A DNA stretch of 51,349 nucleotides from Candidatus Dadabacteria bacterium (GTDB lineage Bacteria; Desulfobacterota_D; UBA1144; Nemesobacterales; Nemesobacteraceae). Position 1 is the first letter of the stretch; each line of letters starts with the position of its first letter. This document shows positions 39,810-51,349 of the stretch, one piece after another. The notes beneath the pieces were generated by a model that searched no databases, was not told the DNA's origin, and saw only the letters and a list, made by a program, of their open reading frames with translations. Location of the stretch: NCBI GenBank assembly GCA_007571325.1, contig RKRQ01000089.1:1-51349 (forward strand), written 5' to 3'. The position numbers and the translations under genes are program-made.

Positions 39810-40619
39810 TTGATAAATCTCGGTGCGGCGCCTTTCCTTAACATGCGACCGCTCATTTACCCTCTGGAGAAAGGGATAGTGAAGCACAGCTTCAATATAA
39901 TGTATTTTGACCCTTTTCTTCTTTCTGAAAACCTGTCTAAAGGAGTAATAGACGTCGCGCCCATTCCCTCAATTGAATTTCTAAAAACCGAAGATTACTC
40001 CATCCTGCCGGGTATTTCCATATCCTCCTTCGGAAAAGTCGACAGCGTAATACTCAATGCGCACACAAAAATAAAAGAAATAAAGAGCGTGTCGGTTGAC
40101 AGTAGGTCTAGGAGTTCGACTGCATTGCTGAGAATAGTTATGGAGCTCTTCTTGGGTCTTAAACCCGAATACGTAAAAAGAGAACCCGGAAACGGTTTCC
40201 TCAAAGGGGTTGATGCCGGAATGCTTATAGGAAACGCCGGTCTTCAGGCCCGTCATCTTCTTGCTGACAAAGCTCCTTTCACCTACGACCTCGGGGAACT
40301 ATGGACAAAGGAAACGGCTCTTCCTTTTGTATATGCCGTAATGGCTATTAAAAAGGGAGACTATGTAACTGCTGAAGGCTGCAGATGTCTTCTTTCAATA
40401 AGAGAACAAGGCGTGGTACTCGCCCCAGAAATAGCAGATATAGAATCTGAAAAACTCGGACTCAGCAGAGAACAATGCCTGACCTACCTCCAAAAAAGAA
40501 TCAAATACGACTTTGACATATCTAAGATTAACGGACTCACGAAATATCGCGATCTTCTTTTTGAACTCAACGAAATAAAGAGCAAATATGAAATCGACTT
40601 TTACTCATACACGTCGTAG
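39810..40619 (+). CDS. mqnA: Chorismate dehydratase (futalosine pathway)
   Basis: A 269-residue periplasmic-binding-fold enzyme. The N-terminal LGAAPFLNMRPLIYPLE and VDVAPIPSIEF-like block (IDVAPIPSIEFL), then DSRSRSSTALLRIV and a C-terminal GELWTKETALPFVYAVMA, are characteristic of MqnA. It dehydrates chorismate to 3-enolpyruvylbenzoate, the first committed futalosine-route step. The start is TTG 39810, preceded by a GGGGG run. It is followed by mqnD 23 bases downstream. Confidence 0.94.
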   Translation: MINLGAAPFLNMRPLIYPLEKGIVKHSFNIMYFDPFLLSENLSKGVIDVAPIPSIEFLKTEDYSILPGISISSFGKVDSVILNAHTKIKEIKSVSVDSRSRSSTALLRIVMELFLGLKPEYVKREPGNGFLKGVDAGMLIGNAGLQARHLLADKAPFTYDLGELWTKETALPFVYAVMAIKKGDYVTAEGCRCLLSIREQGVVLAPEIADIESEKLGLSREQCLTYLQKRIKYDFDISKINGLTKYRDLLFELNEIKSKYEIDFYSYTS

Positions 40620-40642
40620 ATGAAATTAAGAAGGAGATAAAA

Positions 40643-41476
40643 ATGGAAAAACTGATTATGAAGCTGGGGCACAGTCCTGACGCGGATGACGCATTTATGT
40701 TCTACGCAATAGCGAGCGGCAAGGTAAATTCAGAACAAATTGCCTTTGAGCACGTGATCGAAGACATACAATCCCTTAATAGAAGAGCCCTAAAAGCAGA
40801 ACTTGAAGTCACGGCAATTTCTGCCCACGGGTACTTGAGCGTACAGGACAACTATCGGATTCTCTCCTGCGGAGCCAGCATGGGAAAAGGTTACGGACCC
40901 ATAGTAGTTGCCAAGGAAAAAATTTCTAATCTTAGAGGAAAAACCGTAGCTGTACCTGGAAAACTCACCACTGCCTATCTTCTTCTGAACCTCTATGCGG
41001 ATGATTTCATCCCGGTGGAAGCATCTTTTGACGAGATAATGGACAAAGTGCTTTCTGGAGAAGTGGATGCGGGTCTTCTGATACATGAAGGGCAGCTTAC
41101 TTATGAGGAGCTTGATCTCGAACTTCTGCTTGATCTCGGAATGATATGGGCACAGGAAACCGACCTTCCGATGCCGCTTGGGCTTAACGTCATAAGAAGA
41201 GACATACCTCAAGGGCTTGACACTGAAACTCTACGGGTACACAAAGAAAGTATAGAATATGCTCTTTCAAACAAGGTAGAAGCTCTTGATTACGCAATGC
41301 GCTTTGGAAGGGGGATGAGCGAAGATACGGGAGAAAAATTCGTCTTAATGTACGTGAATGAATGGACTAGAGATTTGGGTGAAAGCGGAATTGGAGCACT
41401 TGAACATCTTTTCGAAAAAGCTCAAAGAAAAGGAATGATTTTAGAAAAGCCTAGGCTTGATATTCTTTGCGACTGA
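40643..41476 (+). CDS. mqnD: 1,4-dihydroxy-6-naphthoate synthase (futalosine pathway)
   Basis: A 277-residue MqnD: GHSPDADDAFMFYAI at the N-terminus, TAISAHGYLSVQDNYRILSCGASMG, and LIHEGQLTYEE with the conserved histidine near residue 150. It cleaves cyclic dehypoxanthine futalosine to 1,4-dihydroxy-6-naphthoate on the way to menaquinone. AAGGAG lies at good spacing before the ATG. Its 3' end converges, seven bases apart, on the operon that encodes the deaminase needed for the same route. Confidence 0.95.
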   Translation: MEKLIMKLGHSPDADDAFMFYAIASGKVNSEQIAFEHVIEDIQSLNRRALKAELEVTAISAHGYLSVQDNYRILSCGASMGKGYGPIVVAKEKISNLRGKTVAVPGKLTTAYLLLNLYADDFIPVEASFDEIMDKVLSGEVDAGLLIHEGQLTYEELDLELLLDLGMIWAQETDLPMPLGLNVIRRDIPQGLDTETLRVHKESIEYALSNKVEALDYAMRFGRGMSEDTGEKFVLMYVNEWTRDLGESGIGALEHLFEKAQRKGMILEKPRLDILCD

Positions 41477-41483
41477 TTCTCCT

Positions 41484-42536
41484 CTATATAATTTTGTCAA
41501 CAAATCCCAGCAGAAAATTTATGAGACGACGAAACTCTTCTTCCCGTCTCCACGGCATTCTTAGTCTGTCGCTTATTTCAATCTGGATTGCAGGAACCGA
41601 AAACCGGTTCGCGGCGAATTTTGCCACAGTCATCTGTTTTGCGGCGGGGAATATATCAGTGCCTCCAGCCAAGATTCCATGTTCTTCTGTGGTAAGATAG
41701 AATTTATCAAGAATATCGAAAGCCGATAAAAGAAATTCCCTCCCCTTTCCCACACCCGGAAATAGATCCTGAGGTCTCTCGTTTCCGGTACCGTGTATGT
41801 CGAGGATAAGATCTACCTTCCTCTCGGAAAGAATTTCCCCAAGTTTATTTTTAAAACTACAGTCGTCATAGTAATTCGGGTCTTTCTCCTGTTCTCTGTT
41901 TGAATAGAGACAGTGACAGCCAAGAACTATATGCAGAACTGCCCCGAGAGCGGCAGTATAAAACTCATGACGCTTGAGCTTCCCCATTCTCCTATGAGCG
42001 GTCGAATGTGGACAAGTAACCAGAACAGGGACAGTGCCTTCAAGAAAAATGTTTTCTTCGCAGCCGCCATAGGGTTTCATCCTGTAATACTGTTTTTGGA
42101 TATTCTCAAAAGCAACGGCAAAAGAAAAAGGGTCCGTATCAGATAGACTGAAATCTGAAAACCAGTTGCCGTTTCTTATTATGTCTAAATCTCCTATACG
42201 CTTTCTAAGTTCAAATCCAGGCTCATAGGCGTAGAAAAACTCTTCTTCGCAACAGATAGTAGTTCTTGAAAAAAGCTTTTCATCTACAGACTCAAGAAAG
42301 TCAATGCGCCTCATAAAAACTTCTGAGTCCTTGGGAAGTTCATAAAGCTCTCCCTGAACCGCTAGTGGGGAAGCTTCATCAAACATAGCTGCCGGATAGC
42401 TAAAAGGAGTACTGTATAGAGTTCCGGGAACTCTCATCATCCTAAGCAATTTGCATTGTTCGAGGTGCTTGCTTCTCCGTTCGCCTTTTCGCAGGGTTCC
42501 ATAGACAAAAAACTTTCCGGGTTTCCCTTGAGTCAT
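41484..42536 (-). CDS. Fusion of a gamma-glutamylcyclotransferase-like domain with an N-formylglutamate-amidohydrolase-like domain
   Basis: A 350-residue protein with two domains. Residues 8-125 form a GGCT/AIG2-like domain: FVYGTLRKGE supplies the substrate-binding YGTLR, and E82 in IDFLESVDE fits the catalytic glutamate. Residues 165-350 resemble N-formylglutamate amidohydrolase or related zinc hydrolases: PVLVTCPHSTAHRR, LILDIHGTGNERPQD and IQIEISDRLR could give metal-binding His, Asp/His and Glu. I do not recognise this pairing as a standard architecture. It is the last gene of the dodecin-dapF-like-deaminase operon. A role in trimming gamma-glutamyl compounds is inference. Confidence 0.75.
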   Translation of the reverse strand: MTQGKPGKFFVYGTLRKGERRSKHLEQCKLLRMMRVPGTLYSTPFSYPAAMFDEASPLAVQGELYELPKDSEVFMRRIDFLESVDEKLFSRTTICCEEEFFYAYEPGFELRKRIGDLDIIRNGNWFSDFSLSDTDPFSFAVAFENIQKQYYRMKPYGGCEENIFLEGTVPVLVTCPHSTAHRRMGKLKRHEFYTAALGAVLHIVLGCHCLYSNREQEKDPNYYDDCSFKNKLGEILSERKVDLILDIHGTGNERPQDLFPGVGKGREFLLSAFDILDKFYLTTEEHGILAGGTDIFPAAKQMTVAKFAANRFSVPAIQIEISDRLRMPWRREEEFRRLINFLLGFVDKII

Positions 42537-42552
42537 CCTAGATAATGAAAAA

Positions 42553-43812
42553 CTAATGCTTGTGGCAAGCGCAGGAGTCTTTGCGGTAGATAAAATTTCC
42601 CCCTGCCATGGAGAACTGAAGATTCTCCCGCTTTGAAGATACTATGCAGAGATAAGGATCGGGATCAATCTTGTTCTGATAATTAATGCATATGATATCA
42701 GCACTTTTTCCAATCTCGAGACTTCCCGTATTTTCTTCAATAAAAAGGGCTCTGGCTCCACCAAGAGTTGCAGCATATACCGCCAAGCTGGCACTACTCT
42801 GTCCTATTCCCTGTTTAACCATCATATAATACAGAGATCTAATCTCCTCAAAGAAATCAAGGTCCGTATTGCTTGAAAGTCCATCGGTTCCAAGTCCTAC
42901 CCTGCCATGATCAAGAATAAGACGCAAGTTTGGTTTCCCCACTTTCAAAAAAACATTGCTCCTGGGGCAAAGAATAATTCCTAAATCAACGCGTCGGGCT
43001 ATCTCCATGTCTTCTTCAGTTACCTGGACCATGTGAACCGCGGACAGTTTTACATCCTTTCCGCGAAGATACTTTTCTATGTATCGCGTCGGAGTATCAG
43101 CAACCGGCCTTTCAAAAGTTTTTTTTCCTATCAATGGAAAGACTTTGCGCTCAAATTCATTGGGAAGTTTTTTTAAAAAATCGACTTCTTCAGGACTTTC
43201 ACCTAGATGAATTCCCGATGCAACCGAATTCTCGCACGCACAAGCGAAAACAGCATCCAAAAGTTCCGGTCCGCAGGAATAAGGCGCATGAGGAAAAGGC
43301 CTTTCCTCGTAAAGATATTCATTTTTAAACTCAATTGAGGGAAGTTTCGGTAAAATGCGGTCAAAAAGTTCAAGAAACGCGATTACTCTTGCTCCCGAGT
43401 TTCTGAGTATTTCCCTTCCACAAAAATCCAAAGATGATATCTCCCCTACAGTTGTGACCCCGCTTTCTATGACATCACGAAGACCAACTCTCATTGAATC
43501 CTTCACAAAGTCCTGATCTATTCCACCGGACTTAAGAACGATTAAGCGCTCAAGCCATCCGGTAAAATTCTTAAAACCCTTGATCTTTCCCTTCGTCCAG
43601 CTTAGTTCAAGGTGGGTGTGAGCATTTATAAAACCGGGGAGTATTATCGAGTTTGGCTTTTCCACTTTCTGAAAACCGGGATAGGATGGCTCGATATTTC
43701 CTGATTCCCCTATATCAACGATACGGCCTCGGTCTATAACCACCGCTCCGTTTCTAATTGGCTGGGAACTTATCGGAACAACAAAGTCAGCCGTTAAAAG
43801 CAGTTTTTCCAT
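42553..43812 (-). CDS. Amidohydrolase, probable aminodeoxyfutalosine deaminase
   Basis: A 419-residue metal-dependent deaminase of the cytosine/adenosine-deaminase-like group. Metal ligands are H65 and H67 (FINAHTHLEL), H202 (GIHLGE), H260 (AVHMVQ) and D310 (GTDGLSSN). SGVTTVGEISS and HAPYSC are typical. In organisms with the mqnA-mqnD route that form aminodeoxyfutalosine, an enzyme of this group converts it to futalosine or its analogue, and adjacency to mqnA/mqnD supports that job. The C-terminus ends in an unusual Cys/His cluster, CACHKH. Guanine or S-adenosylhomocysteine deaminase is the alternative. Confidence 0.82.
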   Translation of the reverse strand: MEKLLLTADFVVPISSQPIRNGAVVIDRGRIVDIGESGNIEPSYPGFQKVEKPNSIILPGFINAHTHLELSWTKGKIKGFKNFTGWLERLIVLKSGGIDQDFVKDSMRVGLRDVIESGVTTVGEISSLDFCGREILRNSGARVIAFLELFDRILPKLPSIEFKNEYLYEERPFPHAPYSCGPELLDAVFACACENSVASGIHLGESPEEVDFLKKLPNEFERKVFPLIGKKTFERPVADTPTRYIEKYLRGKDVKLSAVHMVQVTEEDMEIARRVDLGIILCPRSNVFLKVGKPNLRLILDHGRVGLGTDGLSSNTDLDFFEEIRSLYYMMVKQGIGQSSASLAVYAATLGGARALFIEENTGSLEIGKSADIICINYQNKIDPDPYLCIVSSKRENLQFSMAGGNFIYRKDSCACHKH

Positions 43813-43834: not shown

Positions 43835-44713
43835 CTAAAAATTCATCGCGGAGGGATTTTTAAGCTTGGAAAGCAGACTGTCGCTTAATACTCCCGAAAA
43901 AACCTCTTCTACCTCGCCACGCATTGTTATTGACCAGTCTTCCGCAATGTTTATATCAAGATGCCCACCGGGCATCAAAACTCTGAGCTGTCGTTCAGTA
44001 AGACCTGATTTTACGCATGCGGCTGCGACGGCACATGAACTGCTGCCGGAGGCAAGAGTGTAACCCGCTCCTCTTTCCCAGATCAGAATACGAACGCTGT
44101 CGCGCGAGACCACCTGAGCAAACTGAACATTCGTTCTGTTCGGAAAGAAGGGGTGATTTTCTATTTCGGGTCCAAGTTTTCTTATAATATCTTCTCTAAG
44201 TTCATCACAGAAAATAATACAGTGCGGATTGCCCACTGAAACGGCCGTAAAATCAAATTCCCCTGCCCTGAGTACAAGACGCTGAGACACAACTTCTTCT
44301 TTGTTTATGTCTACAGGGATTTCATCCGCCCTGAAAGTTGCCGTTCCCATTTCCACAGTGACATGGTGGACTTTTCCTTCTCTTTCCTCAACTTCGGCTT
44401 TAACAAAACCACCTGGAGTGTCTATGGAAAAAGCTTTACTAGAGGCATGTTTTCTTTCATAAAGGTACTTGGCGAAAATCCTGAGCCCGTTTCCGCTCTT
44501 CTCCGCTTCACTTCCGTCAGGATTGAGAATCCTAAGTCCGAAATCCGCCTTGGCGGAGGGGACAAGAAGCAGTATACCGTCCGAACCTATACCATAATTT
44601 CTATGGCATAAAAGTTCTATGGCAGCCTTGTCGAGATTAAAGTCTATTTCAGTACTGTCTAAGACAATATAATCATTTCCCAACCCGTGTGATTTAACAA
44701 AACAGTTCATCAC
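43835..44713 (-). CDS. Diaminopimelate epimerase homologue with both catalytic cysteines replaced by serine
   Basis: A 292-residue protein with the whole DapF fold: VKSHGLGNDYIVLD at the start, NPDGSEAEKSGNGLR near residue 64, SVGNPHCIIF near residue 159 and ERGAGYTLASGSSSCAVAA near residue 213. In canonical DapF, cysteines at CGNG and ACG act as the base pair that inverts the alpha carbon. Here they read SGNG (S73) and ASG (S222). The surrounding binding residues are kept, so the protein is not simply decaying. It may use a different substrate or chemistry. It sits between dodecin and the deaminase gene. Confidence 0.85.
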   Translation of the reverse strand: MMNCFVKSHGLGNDYIVLDSTEIDFNLDKAAIELLCHRNYGIGSDGILLLVPSAKADFGLRILNPDGSEAEKSGNGLRIFAKYLYERKHASSKAFSIDTPGGFVKAEVEEREGKVHHVTVEMGTATFRADEIPVDINKEEVVSQRLVLRAGEFDFTAVSVGNPHCIIFCDELREDIIRKLGPEIENHPFFPNRTNVQFAQVVSRDSVRILIWERGAGYTLASGSSSCAVAAACVKSGLTERQLRVLMPGGHLDINIAEDWSITMRGEVEEVFSGVLSDSLLSKLKNPSAMNF

Positions 44714-44751: not shown

Positions 44752-44955
44752 CTAATCCTCCAGAATGAAAGTGATTCTGACATGGGAACGGTACTCGGTG
44801 ACCTTCCCATTTTCTATATGGGCATTCATTTTCGTTATCTCGACTCCGGTAAGGCCTCTTATTGTCTTGTTCGCCCTATCAAGAGCCTCTTGTACAGCAT
44901 CATCCCATGATTTCTCGGATGATCCTATCACTTCCGTCACTCTAGCTACAGCCAT
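44752..44955 (-). CDS. Dodecin (flavin-binding protein)
   Basis: A 67-residue protein matching dodecin throughout: VARVTEVIGSSEKSWDDAVQEAL, then ANKTIRGLTGVEITKMNAHIENGKVTEYR. Dodecins form hollow 12-mers that store and quench flavins (or coenzyme A in some lineages). AAGGAGG lies six bases before the ATG. A TTACAA-ccctaca-TTGTAA inverted repeat (44989-45007) lies 34 bases upstream and may be an operator. It heads the operon dodecin, DapF homologue, deaminase, GGCT fusion. Confidence 0.96.
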   Translation of the reverse strand: MAVARVTEVIGSSEKSWDDAVQEALDRANKTIRGLTGVEITKMNAHIENGKVTEYRSHVRITFILED

Positions 44956-48103: not shown

Positions 48104-51100
48104 ATGGGATTATCTCTCTATTCCACTATGTACTACTTGTATTGTAGGCTAAACTACCTTACAGGCATTGTCTTAGCCGGTTTTATTTTAACTTTCCTTA
48201 TATATAACCATAGCACCTTTGCCACTCCGGTTCAAAACAACGAGTGTGGCTCCCTGCCATCTGCCAGCGGCACCATCACCTGCGACACCTCCACATACAG
48301 CACGTCGGGCGACGGGGGCATCTGGTACGATATAACTGCTTCCAGCACTTCTAACAAAAATTTCACGTTCGACTTAGATGATGAAATCGATATCAAATTC
48401 GTCACTGAGTACGATTCTGTTAACGGTTGGACTAAAATTCTCGACTCAGTTATGGAGAACGACCTTCACGGAAGTAAGTGCGATGACCCTTATGATTTCG
48501 GTGAATGTGAGGATGCCGCTGCTGTCAGGATTTTGAGGAATACTTATGTCGGGGACATAACCATCAATTCGTCTGCAAATATCGATGCAAGAACCAAGGA
48601 TGACTTCCATATTTTTGAGGACGAGGAGATGGGTATATATGTCAGGCAAAGGACTAAAGCCGACCTGACCCTGAACGCAACGGGCGGGACCATTATGTCT
48701 AGTGGGGAAGGTATATACTTAAGCCATACGGGTGCAAGCGGCGATATAAATCTAAACCTGTCCGGCGTCACAATCATTGCAGGTGATCGAGGCAATAATG
48801 ATGATGACAGCACTCCAGAACCGGTATCTAGTATAACACAAGGCGTTTTTGCGCAGATGGAACCCAGTACTACAGGTGATTTAACAATCACTATGTCTGG
48901 AGGAAGCATCAAAAATCTCTATGGACATGGCATCTTGGCAAATCAGGAAGGGAGAGGAACTTTAGACATAACGATATCGGGTACAGCGAAAATAGAGTCA
49001 GTGGATGCTTCCGGGGTCTCGGGGCTCCTTAGTTACAATAGTAGCAGTGGCTTTAGTAGCAGTGGCTTGAAAATTAATATGTTGGGAGGAAAAATCCATG
49101 TCGAGGGAAACCGAACTGGATCTGAAGGTAGAGCCCATGGTATCCATGCCCGGAAGAGTACTTCCAACACGGTGAATGGCGACTTCAATATAAAAATGTC
49201 CTGGGGAGAAATCGTGACAGAGAAAAAGCTCGCCCACGGTATTTTTGCAGATCAGATATGGACAGGGGACATCAATATCGATATGTCGGGGTATATCCAG
49301 ACGAAAAAATCAGAAGCTCTCGGCATCCACGGAAACCACACCGGAACCGGCGATATCACTATCAATCTGAAGGATGACGGATACATACGGACTGAAGGGT
49401 CAGAAGCCTACGGTATCTATGCAAACCACACCGGAACCGGTGATGTCGCCATCAATTTGAAGGACACCGACGATACCGAGACCAGTAAAATACAGACGGA
49501 GGGAAACGATTCCTACGGTATCTATGCAAACCACACCGGAGATGATGATATCACCATTGATGTATTCGGCGTTTTAATCCGGACGGGCGTAACCAAACAA
49601 GACGGGACGGTGACCGGAGACTCCGCCCACGGCATCTATGGAAAACACACAGGCGGTGGCGACCTGACTATCAGCCTGCGCGGCGAAGGAAAAATCCAGA
49701 CGATCGGAGACTCCGCCCACGGCATCTATGGCTACCGAACCGGAGCCGGTAGCGGTAAAATCAACATTGACATGTTTGTCGAGAGCGCCAATACCGGAGA
49801 CTGCAGCAGTAATAATACCGCAGACTGCGACATTCTGACCAAAGGTAACGACTCTCACGGTATTTATGGCTACCGAACCGGAAACGGCAACATTGACATC
49901 GATATCGATATGACCGGCGGAGACATTCTGACCGAAGGTACAGAATCCCACGGCATTTATGGCCGCCAATTCACCGGAAGCGGCAATATCGACATCGATA
50001 TGACCGGCGGCAGCATTCTGACCGAAGAGGTACGCTCCTACGGCATCTATGGAAACCATACAGGATCCGCTGCCAATTCTTCCGATAATGTAATCGATAT
50101 AAAGATGGCCGGCGGAGGTATTTTGACCAAGGGCGACTACGCCACCGGCATCAGGGGAATCAGCTCTACCGCAACCGGCGATGTCTCGATCGAACTTATG
50201 GGAGATGGCTCCATCCACACCCAAGGGGACTACGCCGAGGGCATCTATGGAAACTACACCGGAAACGGTGATCTCACGATCAGCCTGCGCGGTGGTAAAG
50301 GAGAAATCCAGACAACGGGAGACTCCGCCCACGGTATCTATGGAAATCACACCGGAAACGGTGATCTCACGATCAACTTCAACGGCTCCATTGAGACGTT
50401 AGGGGCGGGCGCTCATGGTATTCTCGCAAATCACAGTGGAACCACAGCCGATATATCCATTCACATGTCTGGCGGCAATGTCGTTACCCATGCCAGTGAC
50501 GCCTACCCGATCCATTTCATGTCCTCAAGCGCCAACAAAACCCTGACACTTAGCAACACCCTTATTGAACACGACATCGCAGACGGCAGTTTCGGAACTG
50601 CAATCAGCTTTTCGGGCAACAGCGACGACTTGTTGAGGGTCGAGGGTGGGGGTAAAACCACGATCCGTGGAGATGTGAATTTCTCTGAAGGAAATGACAG
50701 CCTCGTATTCTACACAGACCCAAACCAGGGAACCGTGGAGTTTGCCCATGAAGGCGGCATGATGATCGACCTTGAGCATATCTCCAAGATTGGTTCGGGA
50801 GTGGCGAGGCTACACTCTCTAAGCGTAGAGAGCGGGATTATGTCGCTTGAGAACGGCGATCTGCGTTTGAACGGCCATCTTGATCTCGGTGCAGACGGAG
50901 TTTTGATGATTCACGACCCGTCTCGGTTGATTTTTGAGTCAGGTGAAGAGCCGGATGACTACGGGCGTATAACGGCCAGTAAAGTAAGCTTCATGAGTCA
51001 GAACTCCAGGTTATATCTAAGTGAAGGAGCAAATCCTGCGCTTGACGAAAAGGACGTACTGCTGGTGAACTCGGAAGAACAAGAAGTCAAAGGAGGACAT

Positions 51101-51349
51101 TTCAGCACAGAACCCCCGGGTTCCGATCCAAACCCTGACGTGGAGCCTGTGCTATATGACGAGAACGATATGGAGATAGGTCTTGTCACGAACGACGGAA
51201 TCATTTGTTTAGCTGGCACTCCTAACAATTCTCCATGTCCATTAATTATCGAACCGCCGGACGACAAGGAACCGCCGGACGACAAGGAACCGCCGGACGA
51301 CAAGGAACCGCCGGACGACAAGGAACCGCCGGACGACAAGGAACCGCCG
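48104..51349 (+). CDS. Large secreted repetitive surface protein, autotransporter-passenger-like (3' end beyond window)
   Basis: An open frame of 1082 codons that I translated from ATG 48104 to the window edge without a stop; it is absent from the ORF track because it has no stop here. GGAGG lies five bases before the ATG. A long signal peptide contains YLTGIVLAGFILTFLIY and probably ends at STFA/TPVQ (about residue 41). Residues 175-790 hold about 17-18 imperfect repeats of the form AHGIYGNHTGNGDLTI plus a short strand and G-x-I-x-T, roughly 30 residues each, suiting a beta-helix or beta-roll. A non-repeat beta-rich region follows, then E-P-P-D-D-K tandem repeats. Autotransporter passengers have this order, with a C-terminal barrel expected downstream. 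An RTX-like or other adhesin is possible. Confidence 0.85.
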   Translation, partial: MGLSLYSTMYYLYCRLNYLTGIVLAGFILTFLIYNHSTFATPVQNNECGSLPSASGTITCDTSTYSTSGDGGIWYDITASSTSNKNFTFDLDDEIDIKFVTEYDSVNGWTKILDSVMENDLHGSKCDDPYDFGECEDAAAVRILRNTYVGDITINSSANIDARTKDDFHIFEDEEMGIYVRQRTKADLTLNATGGTIMSSGEGIYLSHTGASGDINLNLSGVTIIAGDRGNNDDDSTPEPVSSITQGVFAQMEPSTTGDLTITMSGGSIKNLYGHGILANQEGRGTLDITISGTAKIESVDASGVSGLLSYNSSSGFSSSGLKINMLGGKIHVEGNRTGSEGRAHGIHARKSTSNTVNGDFNIKMSWGEIVTEKKLAHGIFADQIWTGDINIDMSGYIQTKKSEALGIHGNHTGTGDITINLKDDGYIRTEGSEAYGIYANHTGTGDVAINLKDTDDTETSKIQTEGNDSYGIYANHTGDDDITIDVFGVLIRTGVTKQDGTVTGDSAHGIYGKHTGGGDLTISLRGEGKIQTIGDSAHGIYGYRTGAGSGKINIDMFVESANTGDCSSNNTADCDILTKGNDSHGIYGYRTGNGNIDIDIDMTGGDILTEGTESHGIYGRQFTGSGNIDIDMTGGSILTEEVRSYGIYGNHTGSAANSSDNVIDIKMAGGGILTKGDYATGIRGISSTATGDVSIELMGDGSIHTQGDYAEGIYGNYTGNGDLTISLRGGKGEIQTTGDSAHGIYGNHTGNGDLTINFNGSIETLGAGAHGILANHSGTTADISIHMSGGNVVTHASDAYPIHFMSSSANKTLTLSNTLIEHDIADGSFGTAISFSGNSDDLLRVEGGGKTTIRGDVNFSEGNDSLVFYTDPNQGTVEFAHEGGMMIDLEHISKIGSGVARLHSLSVESGIMSLENGDLRLNGHLDLGADGVLMIHDPSRLIFESGEEPDDYGRITASKVSFMSQNSRLYLSEGANPALDEKDVLLVNSEEQEVKGGHFSTEPPGSDPNPDVEPVLYDENDMEIGLVTNDGIICLAGTPNNSPCPLIIEPPDDKEPPDDKEPPDDKEPPDDKEPPDDKEPP
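48628..50480 (+). repeat. Array of about 17-18 diverged ~90-105 bp coding repeats
   Basis: The recurring protein core is HGIY followed by G/A-N-H-T-G-x-G-D-(I/L)-x-I and, about ten residues on, I-x-T-x-G. Units at 49317, 49407, 49512, 49626, 49716, 49854, 49947, 50037, 50232 and 50325 are the closest to each other; outer units are more diverged. Spacing varies because of inserts such as the DTDDTETS and CSSNNTADCD loops. Similar units in the middle suggest expansion by internal duplication. Confidence 0.85.
51251..51349 (+). repeat. 18-bp perfect tandem repeat, 5.5 copies, encoding EPPDDK
   Basis: GAACCGCCGGACGACAAG repeats without a single mismatch to the end of the window, in frame with the surface protein. 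It encodes a charged, proline-rich linker of the kind that separates a passenger from its membrane domain. The array continues beyond the window, so copy number is unknown. Confidence 0.97.

Follow-up and report, generated by a model that had tools for sequence, protein, structure and literature searches.

A DapF clade with serine in place of both catalytic cysteines, probably made up of working diaminopimelate epimerases

In the textbook view, diaminopimelate (DAP) epimerase, DapF, works with a cysteine thiol/thiolate pair, as do its relatives, and this pair is the basis of mechanism-based inhibitors. The locus considered here raises the question of what a DapF homologue does when serine stands in both places. 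It lies in a stretch of 51,349 nucleotides from a Candidatus Dadabacteria bacterium (contig RKRQ01000089.1), which is called the window below.

The gene, its serines and its predicted fold

The features of the window used in the analysis are the following.

43835..44713 (stop included), minus strand: Ser/Ser dapF homologue, identified by reading of the open reading frame, Pfam and NCBIfam profile scores, an AlphaFold model and PDB matches
44495..44497, minus strand: AGC codon of Ser72, replacing the first catalytic cysteine (Anabaena Cys75); invariant in the Ser/Ser clade
44048..44050, minus strand: TCC codon of Ser221, replacing the second catalytic cysteine (Anabaena Cys224); invariant in the Ser/Ser clade
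44498..44500, minus strand: AAG codon of Lys71, candidate helper residue; invariant in Ser/Ser proteins, Met in 95% of Cys/Cys rows
44039..44041, minus strand: AGT codon of Ser224, candidate helper residue; invariant in Ser/Ser proteins, Gly in all Cys/Cys rows
44752..44955, minus strand: dodecin (PF07311, 92.6 bits), upstream neighbour, context only
42553..43812, minus strand: amidohydrolase (PF01979), aminofutalosine-deaminase-like, downstream neighbour, context only

The dapF homologue may start with GTG at 44713 (292 codons) or, one codon on, with ATG at 44710 (291 codons), and residues are numbered from the latter. Its translation includes EAEKSGNGLRIF at the Ser72 site and WERGAGYTLASGSSSCAV at the Ser221 site, while canonical DapF has CGNG and ACGTGACA at these places, according to the alignment to PDB chains. 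The original prediction, that both catalytic cysteines have become serine and that the remaining active site is kept, is thereby confirmed. In particular, residues contacting DAP in Anabaena DapF (listed in PMC12039745), namely Asn66, Gly76, Asn77, Asn164, Asn197, Glu215, Arg216 and Gly225, are invariant in the Ser/Ser alignment, and only the position of Thr226 varies, being Ser or Thr. Two other cysteines of the window protein were considered as replacements and rejected: Cys226 is Ser in several Ser/Ser members and is also found in canonical forms, as is Cys164 (in NPHC).

Family assignment is clear from the profile scores. The window protein scores 200 bits with Pfam DAP_epimerase (PF01678) and 253 bits with the NCBIfam DapF equivalog TIGR00652 (cut-off 114.65), which names it DapF. 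The bifunctional DapF/glutamate racemase model of the Chlamydia type (NF038284) gives 71.5 bits, below its cut-off of 350, and the proline racemase/hydroxyproline epimerase model PF05544 shows no full-length match, the 27.4 bits coming from residues 54-138 alone. Among proteins of solved structure, the closest in sequence are the DAP epimerases of Arabidopsis, a cyanobacterium and Bacillus anthracis, each of which has both cysteines.

The AlphaFold model (mean pLDDT 94.1) points to the two-domain DapF fold, as DAP epimerases and O-ureidoserine racemase make up its 26 best PDB matches. In this model Ser72 and Ser221 directly precede the predicted helices 73-85 and 222-234; catalytic cysteines of the canonical DapF family likewise stand at helix starts, where they are stabilised by the helix dipoles (PMC12039745, PMC11602996).

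Spread of the serine pair and replacement of the Cys/Cys form

The window comes from a draft metagenome-assembled genome (1.3 Mb, 92.7% complete), which speaks for a sequencing or assembly error at both codons, named in the original prediction as a possible refutation. The chance of such an error is practically nil, since all 49 Dadabacteria genes whose DNA was read have the same Ser/Ser pair, and cultured isolates of other phyla carry it as well. A whole-protein search of 61 genomes gave a match in 56 of them, one each. A scan of the sequence collection yielded 555 confirmed relatives, the best 80 of which are all Ser/Ser, though AEKSGNGL was one of the two patterns used, which favours Ser at the first site but has no such effect at the second; searches with the whole protein do not have this bias. 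The carriers among these best 80 of 555 belong to Dadabacteria, Rokuibacteriota, Methylomirabilota/NC10, Aquificota, Armatimonadota, Chloroflexota, Nitrospirota, Ignavibacteriota, Bacillota and Bacteroidota (many Prolixibacteraceae, also Flavobacterium panacis and Apibacter mensalis), and the pair spreads over at least nine phyla. Among the loci tallied there are 190 Ser/Ser proteins, no mixed Cys/Ser ones, and Cys-type proteins read at both sites (27) or at one (17). The codons of 165 different Ser/Ser genes are AGY (134) or TCN (31) for Ser72, and always TCN for Ser221.

The original prediction had asked whether the Ser/Ser homologues form a clade. They do: in a tree built with both catalytic columns masked, a single branch (bootstrap 100, SH-aLRT 99) separates the Ser/Ser from the Cys/Cys rows, and a quick unmasked tree agrees on this split. 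The Cys/Cys rows came from Aquificota, Flavobacteriales, Clostridium and three PDB sequences only, and the tree is unrooted. Identity between the Ser/Ser and Cys/Cys proteins compared does not exceed 42%, and within the Ser/Ser group it is 41% upward. Among the positions that distinguish the clade are Lys71 (in place of Met), Ser72, Ser221 and Ile78 (all three in place of Cys) and Ser224 (in place of Gly), as well as Pro64, Tyr14 and Gln196.

The Ser/Ser gene takes the place of the Cys/Cys dapF genome by genome. Among 121 Aquificota genomes, typed by identity to the query (at least 65% for the Ser/Ser type, about 28-42% for the other form), 32 have the Ser/Ser type, 80 the other form, none both, and nine neither; twenty genes of the other form were fetched and read as Cys. 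If the two forms were independent, about 21 genomes would be expected to have both (hypergeometric P ~2e-21, the true figure being less extreme due to shared ancestry). Of 148 Flavobacteriales genomes searched, only Flavobacterium panacis has a Ser/Ser-like match, which stands there alone, and the relatives read have Cys. In Clostridiaceae, an intact Ser/Ser gene was found in nine genomes, six of which (C. paridis included) have no second match and sit among Cys/Cys relatives, and three have both forms. In Nitrospirota, 39 of 118 genomes have the Ser/Ser type by identity, and all 30 loci read are Ser/Ser; three of the 39 also have a match at Cys-type identity, assigned by identity alone. Since the two forms occur together in three genomes of Clostridiaceae and in up to three of Nitrospirota, some Ser/Ser copies could have another role.

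Several single loci are of separate interest. In a tenth Clostridiaceae genome (G587:C1:2465053-2465681, locus L308) the Ser/Ser dapF is broken by several stops, and the other DapF match has ~39% identity. In the Nitrospirota genomes G362, G372 and G381, which have a Ser/Ser-type match, the match at Cys-type identity lies in an open reading frame of 445-446 codons and may be fused; G384 has two Ser/Ser-type matches with ~50% identity. The genome of Neobacillus cucumis (locus L197) encodes, besides the Ser/Ser protein, a second, divergent Cys/Cys DapF-like protein (MCGNGLRL, ACGTAMSAS), which may have another substrate.

A sole DapF in genomes that need one

A DapF-family search of the window's draft genome, where the original prediction had left room for a second, canonical dapF, gave the Ser/Ser protein as the only match; at 92.7% completeness a missed canonical gene is unlikely, because the single-copy pattern holds across the window's phylum. 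Outside Dadabacteria, 30 Ser/Ser genomes (without completeness figures) were tested, and 26 of them have no DapF-family match besides the Ser/Ser protein. These 30 genomes, together with 15 from Dadabacteria, were surveyed for the rest of the pathway, the families being sought one by one. LysA is present in all 45 (over the cut-off in 38), MurE is over the cut-off in all 45, and DapB in all 39 genomes tested. The motif DNPR, which we take to be of the meso-DAP type, occurs in all 21 MurE sequences read, that of the window's genome included. A bypass via meso-DAP dehydrogenase was rejected, as this enzyme was found in none of the 45 Ser/Ser genomes, the Bacteroides and Corynebacterium controls being positive.

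The window's genome itself encodes DapL over the cut-off (contig C22), LysA (C77), DapB (C95) and MurE (C26). LysA acts on meso-DAP, and therefore this genome needs an epimerase; the presence of DapL, DapB, LysA and a meso-DAP-type MurE, with DAP dehydrogenase absent, leads to the same need. The Ser/Ser protein is the only candidate DAP epimerase homologue found there.

The original prediction had noted that the gene stands apart from lysine genes. This is true of the window, where dodecin and the amidohydrolase flank it, but not of relatives in Bacteroidota and Ignavibacteria. In Bacteroidota the Ser/Ser gene adjoins lysA in 17 loci (on the same strand and no more than about 300 bp away in 16 of them), and a divergent dapL is often nearby; two sampled LysA proteins of this group are over the cut-off and several others just under it. 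In an Ignavibacteria metagenome-assembled genome the DapL gene lies 95 bp downstream. In one Nitrospirota genome (L170) the lysA region has the order arg-lysA-dapA-dapB with no dapF between lysA and dapA, the Ser/Ser gene being on another contig.

In 25 Dadabacteria loci the neighbours of dapF are dodecin, the amidohydrolase, a CcsB-like gene and others. The best NCBIfam model for the amidohydrolase of the window is the aminofutalosine deaminase family hydrolase, with a score below the model cut-off. The aminofutalosine-type neighbourhood was rejected as a functional clue, the linkage of the amidohydrolase with dapF being seen in Dadabacteria only. The aminotransferase near dapF in some Dadabacteria was likewise rejected as dapL, since it does not reach the DapL cut-offs and its closest model is an alanine transaminase; the DapL over the cut-off is encoded elsewhere. 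Region 39810-43812 of the window holds, besides the amidohydrolase gene, two plus-strand genes that resemble MqnA and MqnD (a visual assignment; the NCBIfam models gave no match), and all three are conserved near dapF in Dadabacteria. At the window's end (50998-51339, minus strand) there is an open reading frame starting with tandem SSGG-L repeats.

From the neighbourhood without lysine genes, the original prediction had suggested a new substrate. An epimerase, racemase or isomerase of another compound in a new pathway would not be without precedent, as a Fusobacterium protein predicted to be DapF turned out to racemise histidine (PMC11602996). In the present case we consider it very improbable: it would leave genomes with LysA, MurE and DapB and no DAP dehydrogenase without a DAP epimerase, the residues that grip DAP at its distal amino and carboxyl groups do not vary, and elsewhere the gene lies beside lysA and dapL. 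The lack of a second dapF and the replacement of the Cys/Cys gene also speak against a new substrate.

Proton transfer and relation to known enzymes

We consider, with a probability of about 0.75, that the window protein serves this Dadabacterium, as its homologues serve many other bacteria, as the working DAP epimerase, and that it belongs to a Ser/Ser clade in which hydroxyls would transfer the proton, perhaps with help from Lys71 and Ser224. DAP epimerisation is inferred from homology, the predicted fold, the contact residues, the single clade, the sole DapF, the mutual exclusion of the two forms, the rest of the pathway and the operon context in Bacteroidota; the retention of serine at both sites, with two classes of codon at Ser72, also speaks for it. 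The points against it are the nearly dead Cys-to-Ser mutants of relatives, the occurrence of both forms in the Clostridiaceae and Nitrospirota genomes mentioned above, and the position of the Dadabacteria gene away from lysine genes.

The protein would bind LL-DAP as canonical DapF does and invert one alpha-carbon, producing meso-DAP for MurE and LysA. Ser72 and Ser221 would remove and return the proton through their hydroxyls, which would stand in for the thiol/thiolate pair where two helices begin, perhaps assisted by Lys71 and Ser224, found only in the clade. Substrate and overall reaction would remain unchanged, the proton-transfer pair having probably changed as a package. The assignment of the groups moving the proton is speculative, and the base could be a serine alkoxide, a lysine-assisted hydroxyl or water. 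With both cysteines replaced in an otherwise conserved active site, part of the chemistry must be unlike that of the textbook pair. Of the two outcomes given in the original prediction for a double serine, inactive or acting differently, the second is therefore retained in this sense, while inactivity is not supported, given the sole DapF and the presence of DapL, DapB, LysA and MurE.

It is possible, if rather doubtful, that DAP is epimerised with an acid/base other than the serines, the proton being transferred by Lys71, by bound water or hydroxide, or by a metal. Lys71, next to Ser72, and likewise Ser224 are invariant in the clade and absent from Cys/Cys rows, and no basic residue lies close to the thiols of canonical DapF (PMC12039745); still, the serines stand exactly at both cysteine places and vary together with them.

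The loss of both catalytic thiols could also mean a pseudoenzyme, regulator or scaffold that binds DAP with no epimerisation, meso-DAP being made by an unrelated protein. Mutants of relatives agree with this: single Cys-to-Ser mutants of PddB have <0.1% activity (PMC8225329), as do those of M. tuberculosis DapF according to the citation in the same paper, and the activity of HisR mutants is greatly reduced (PMC11602996). We find this explanation unlikely: to produce the exclusion observed, the substitute would have to travel with the Ser/Ser gene in several phyla and be absent or useless beside the Cys form, and pseudoenzymes do not usually keep an entire active site strictly invariant.

Compared with canonical DapF (TIGR00652/PF01678; structures from H. 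influenzae, Anabaena, Arabidopsis and B. anthracis), the Ser/Ser proteins have the same predicted fold, length, contact residues and place in the lysine/peptidoglycan pathway, and the window protein scores over the curated cut-off; they differ by the two serines, by clade-specific residues (Lys71, Ser224, Ile78, Pro64, Gln196) and by the low identity given above. The group is a variant clade of DapF and not canonical DapF, as one defining feature, the Cys pair, is missing, while sequence, predicted fold, contact residues and pathway place fit DapF. PhzF and other DapF-fold isomerases have the fold in common with it, and PhzF functions without a Cys pair, but these proteins show about 15% identity, a much weaker structural match and different chemistry.

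Serine at a catalytic position of the same fold is also known from engineered mutants of DapF (PDB 2q9h, C73S; 2q9j, C217S), HisR and PddB (PMC11602996, PMC8225329), which are single, man-made and nearly inactive, whereas the change in the Ser/Ser clade is natural, conserved, affects both sites and is accompanied by other co-varying residues. Natural hydroxyls in place of a thiol occur in cofactor-independent racemase families, in the Cys/Thr aspartate/glutamate racemases Ecl-DER and MMP0739 and in human trans-3-hydroxyproline dehydratase (PMC8142540); there one of the two residues is changed, not both, and the Cys-to-Thr change gives one-way enzymes or dehydratases. A literature search, with subscription papers mostly outside its reach, found no paper describing a Ser/Ser DapF clade.

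We give slightly better than an even chance to the broader view that the clade represents a natural, widespread cysteine-free cofactor-independent epimerase, in which serine, perhaps assisted by lysine, removes an alpha-proton of pKa about 29 at useful rates, and which does the work of the thiol enzyme in several lineages, perhaps thanks to resistance to oxidation or to thiol-reactive agents. Because a single Cys-to-Ser change almost abolishes the activity of related enzymes, the clade is worth testing, and in Lys71 and Ser224 nature provides co-varying residues for study. If the two serines do the same job as the cysteines, their attack on such a weak carbon acid could be tested by Ser/Cys swaps in both directions, and DapF inhibitors that target cysteine would miss many bacteria, among them Nitrospirota, Hydrogenothermaceae, Prolixibacteraceae and Dadabacteria.
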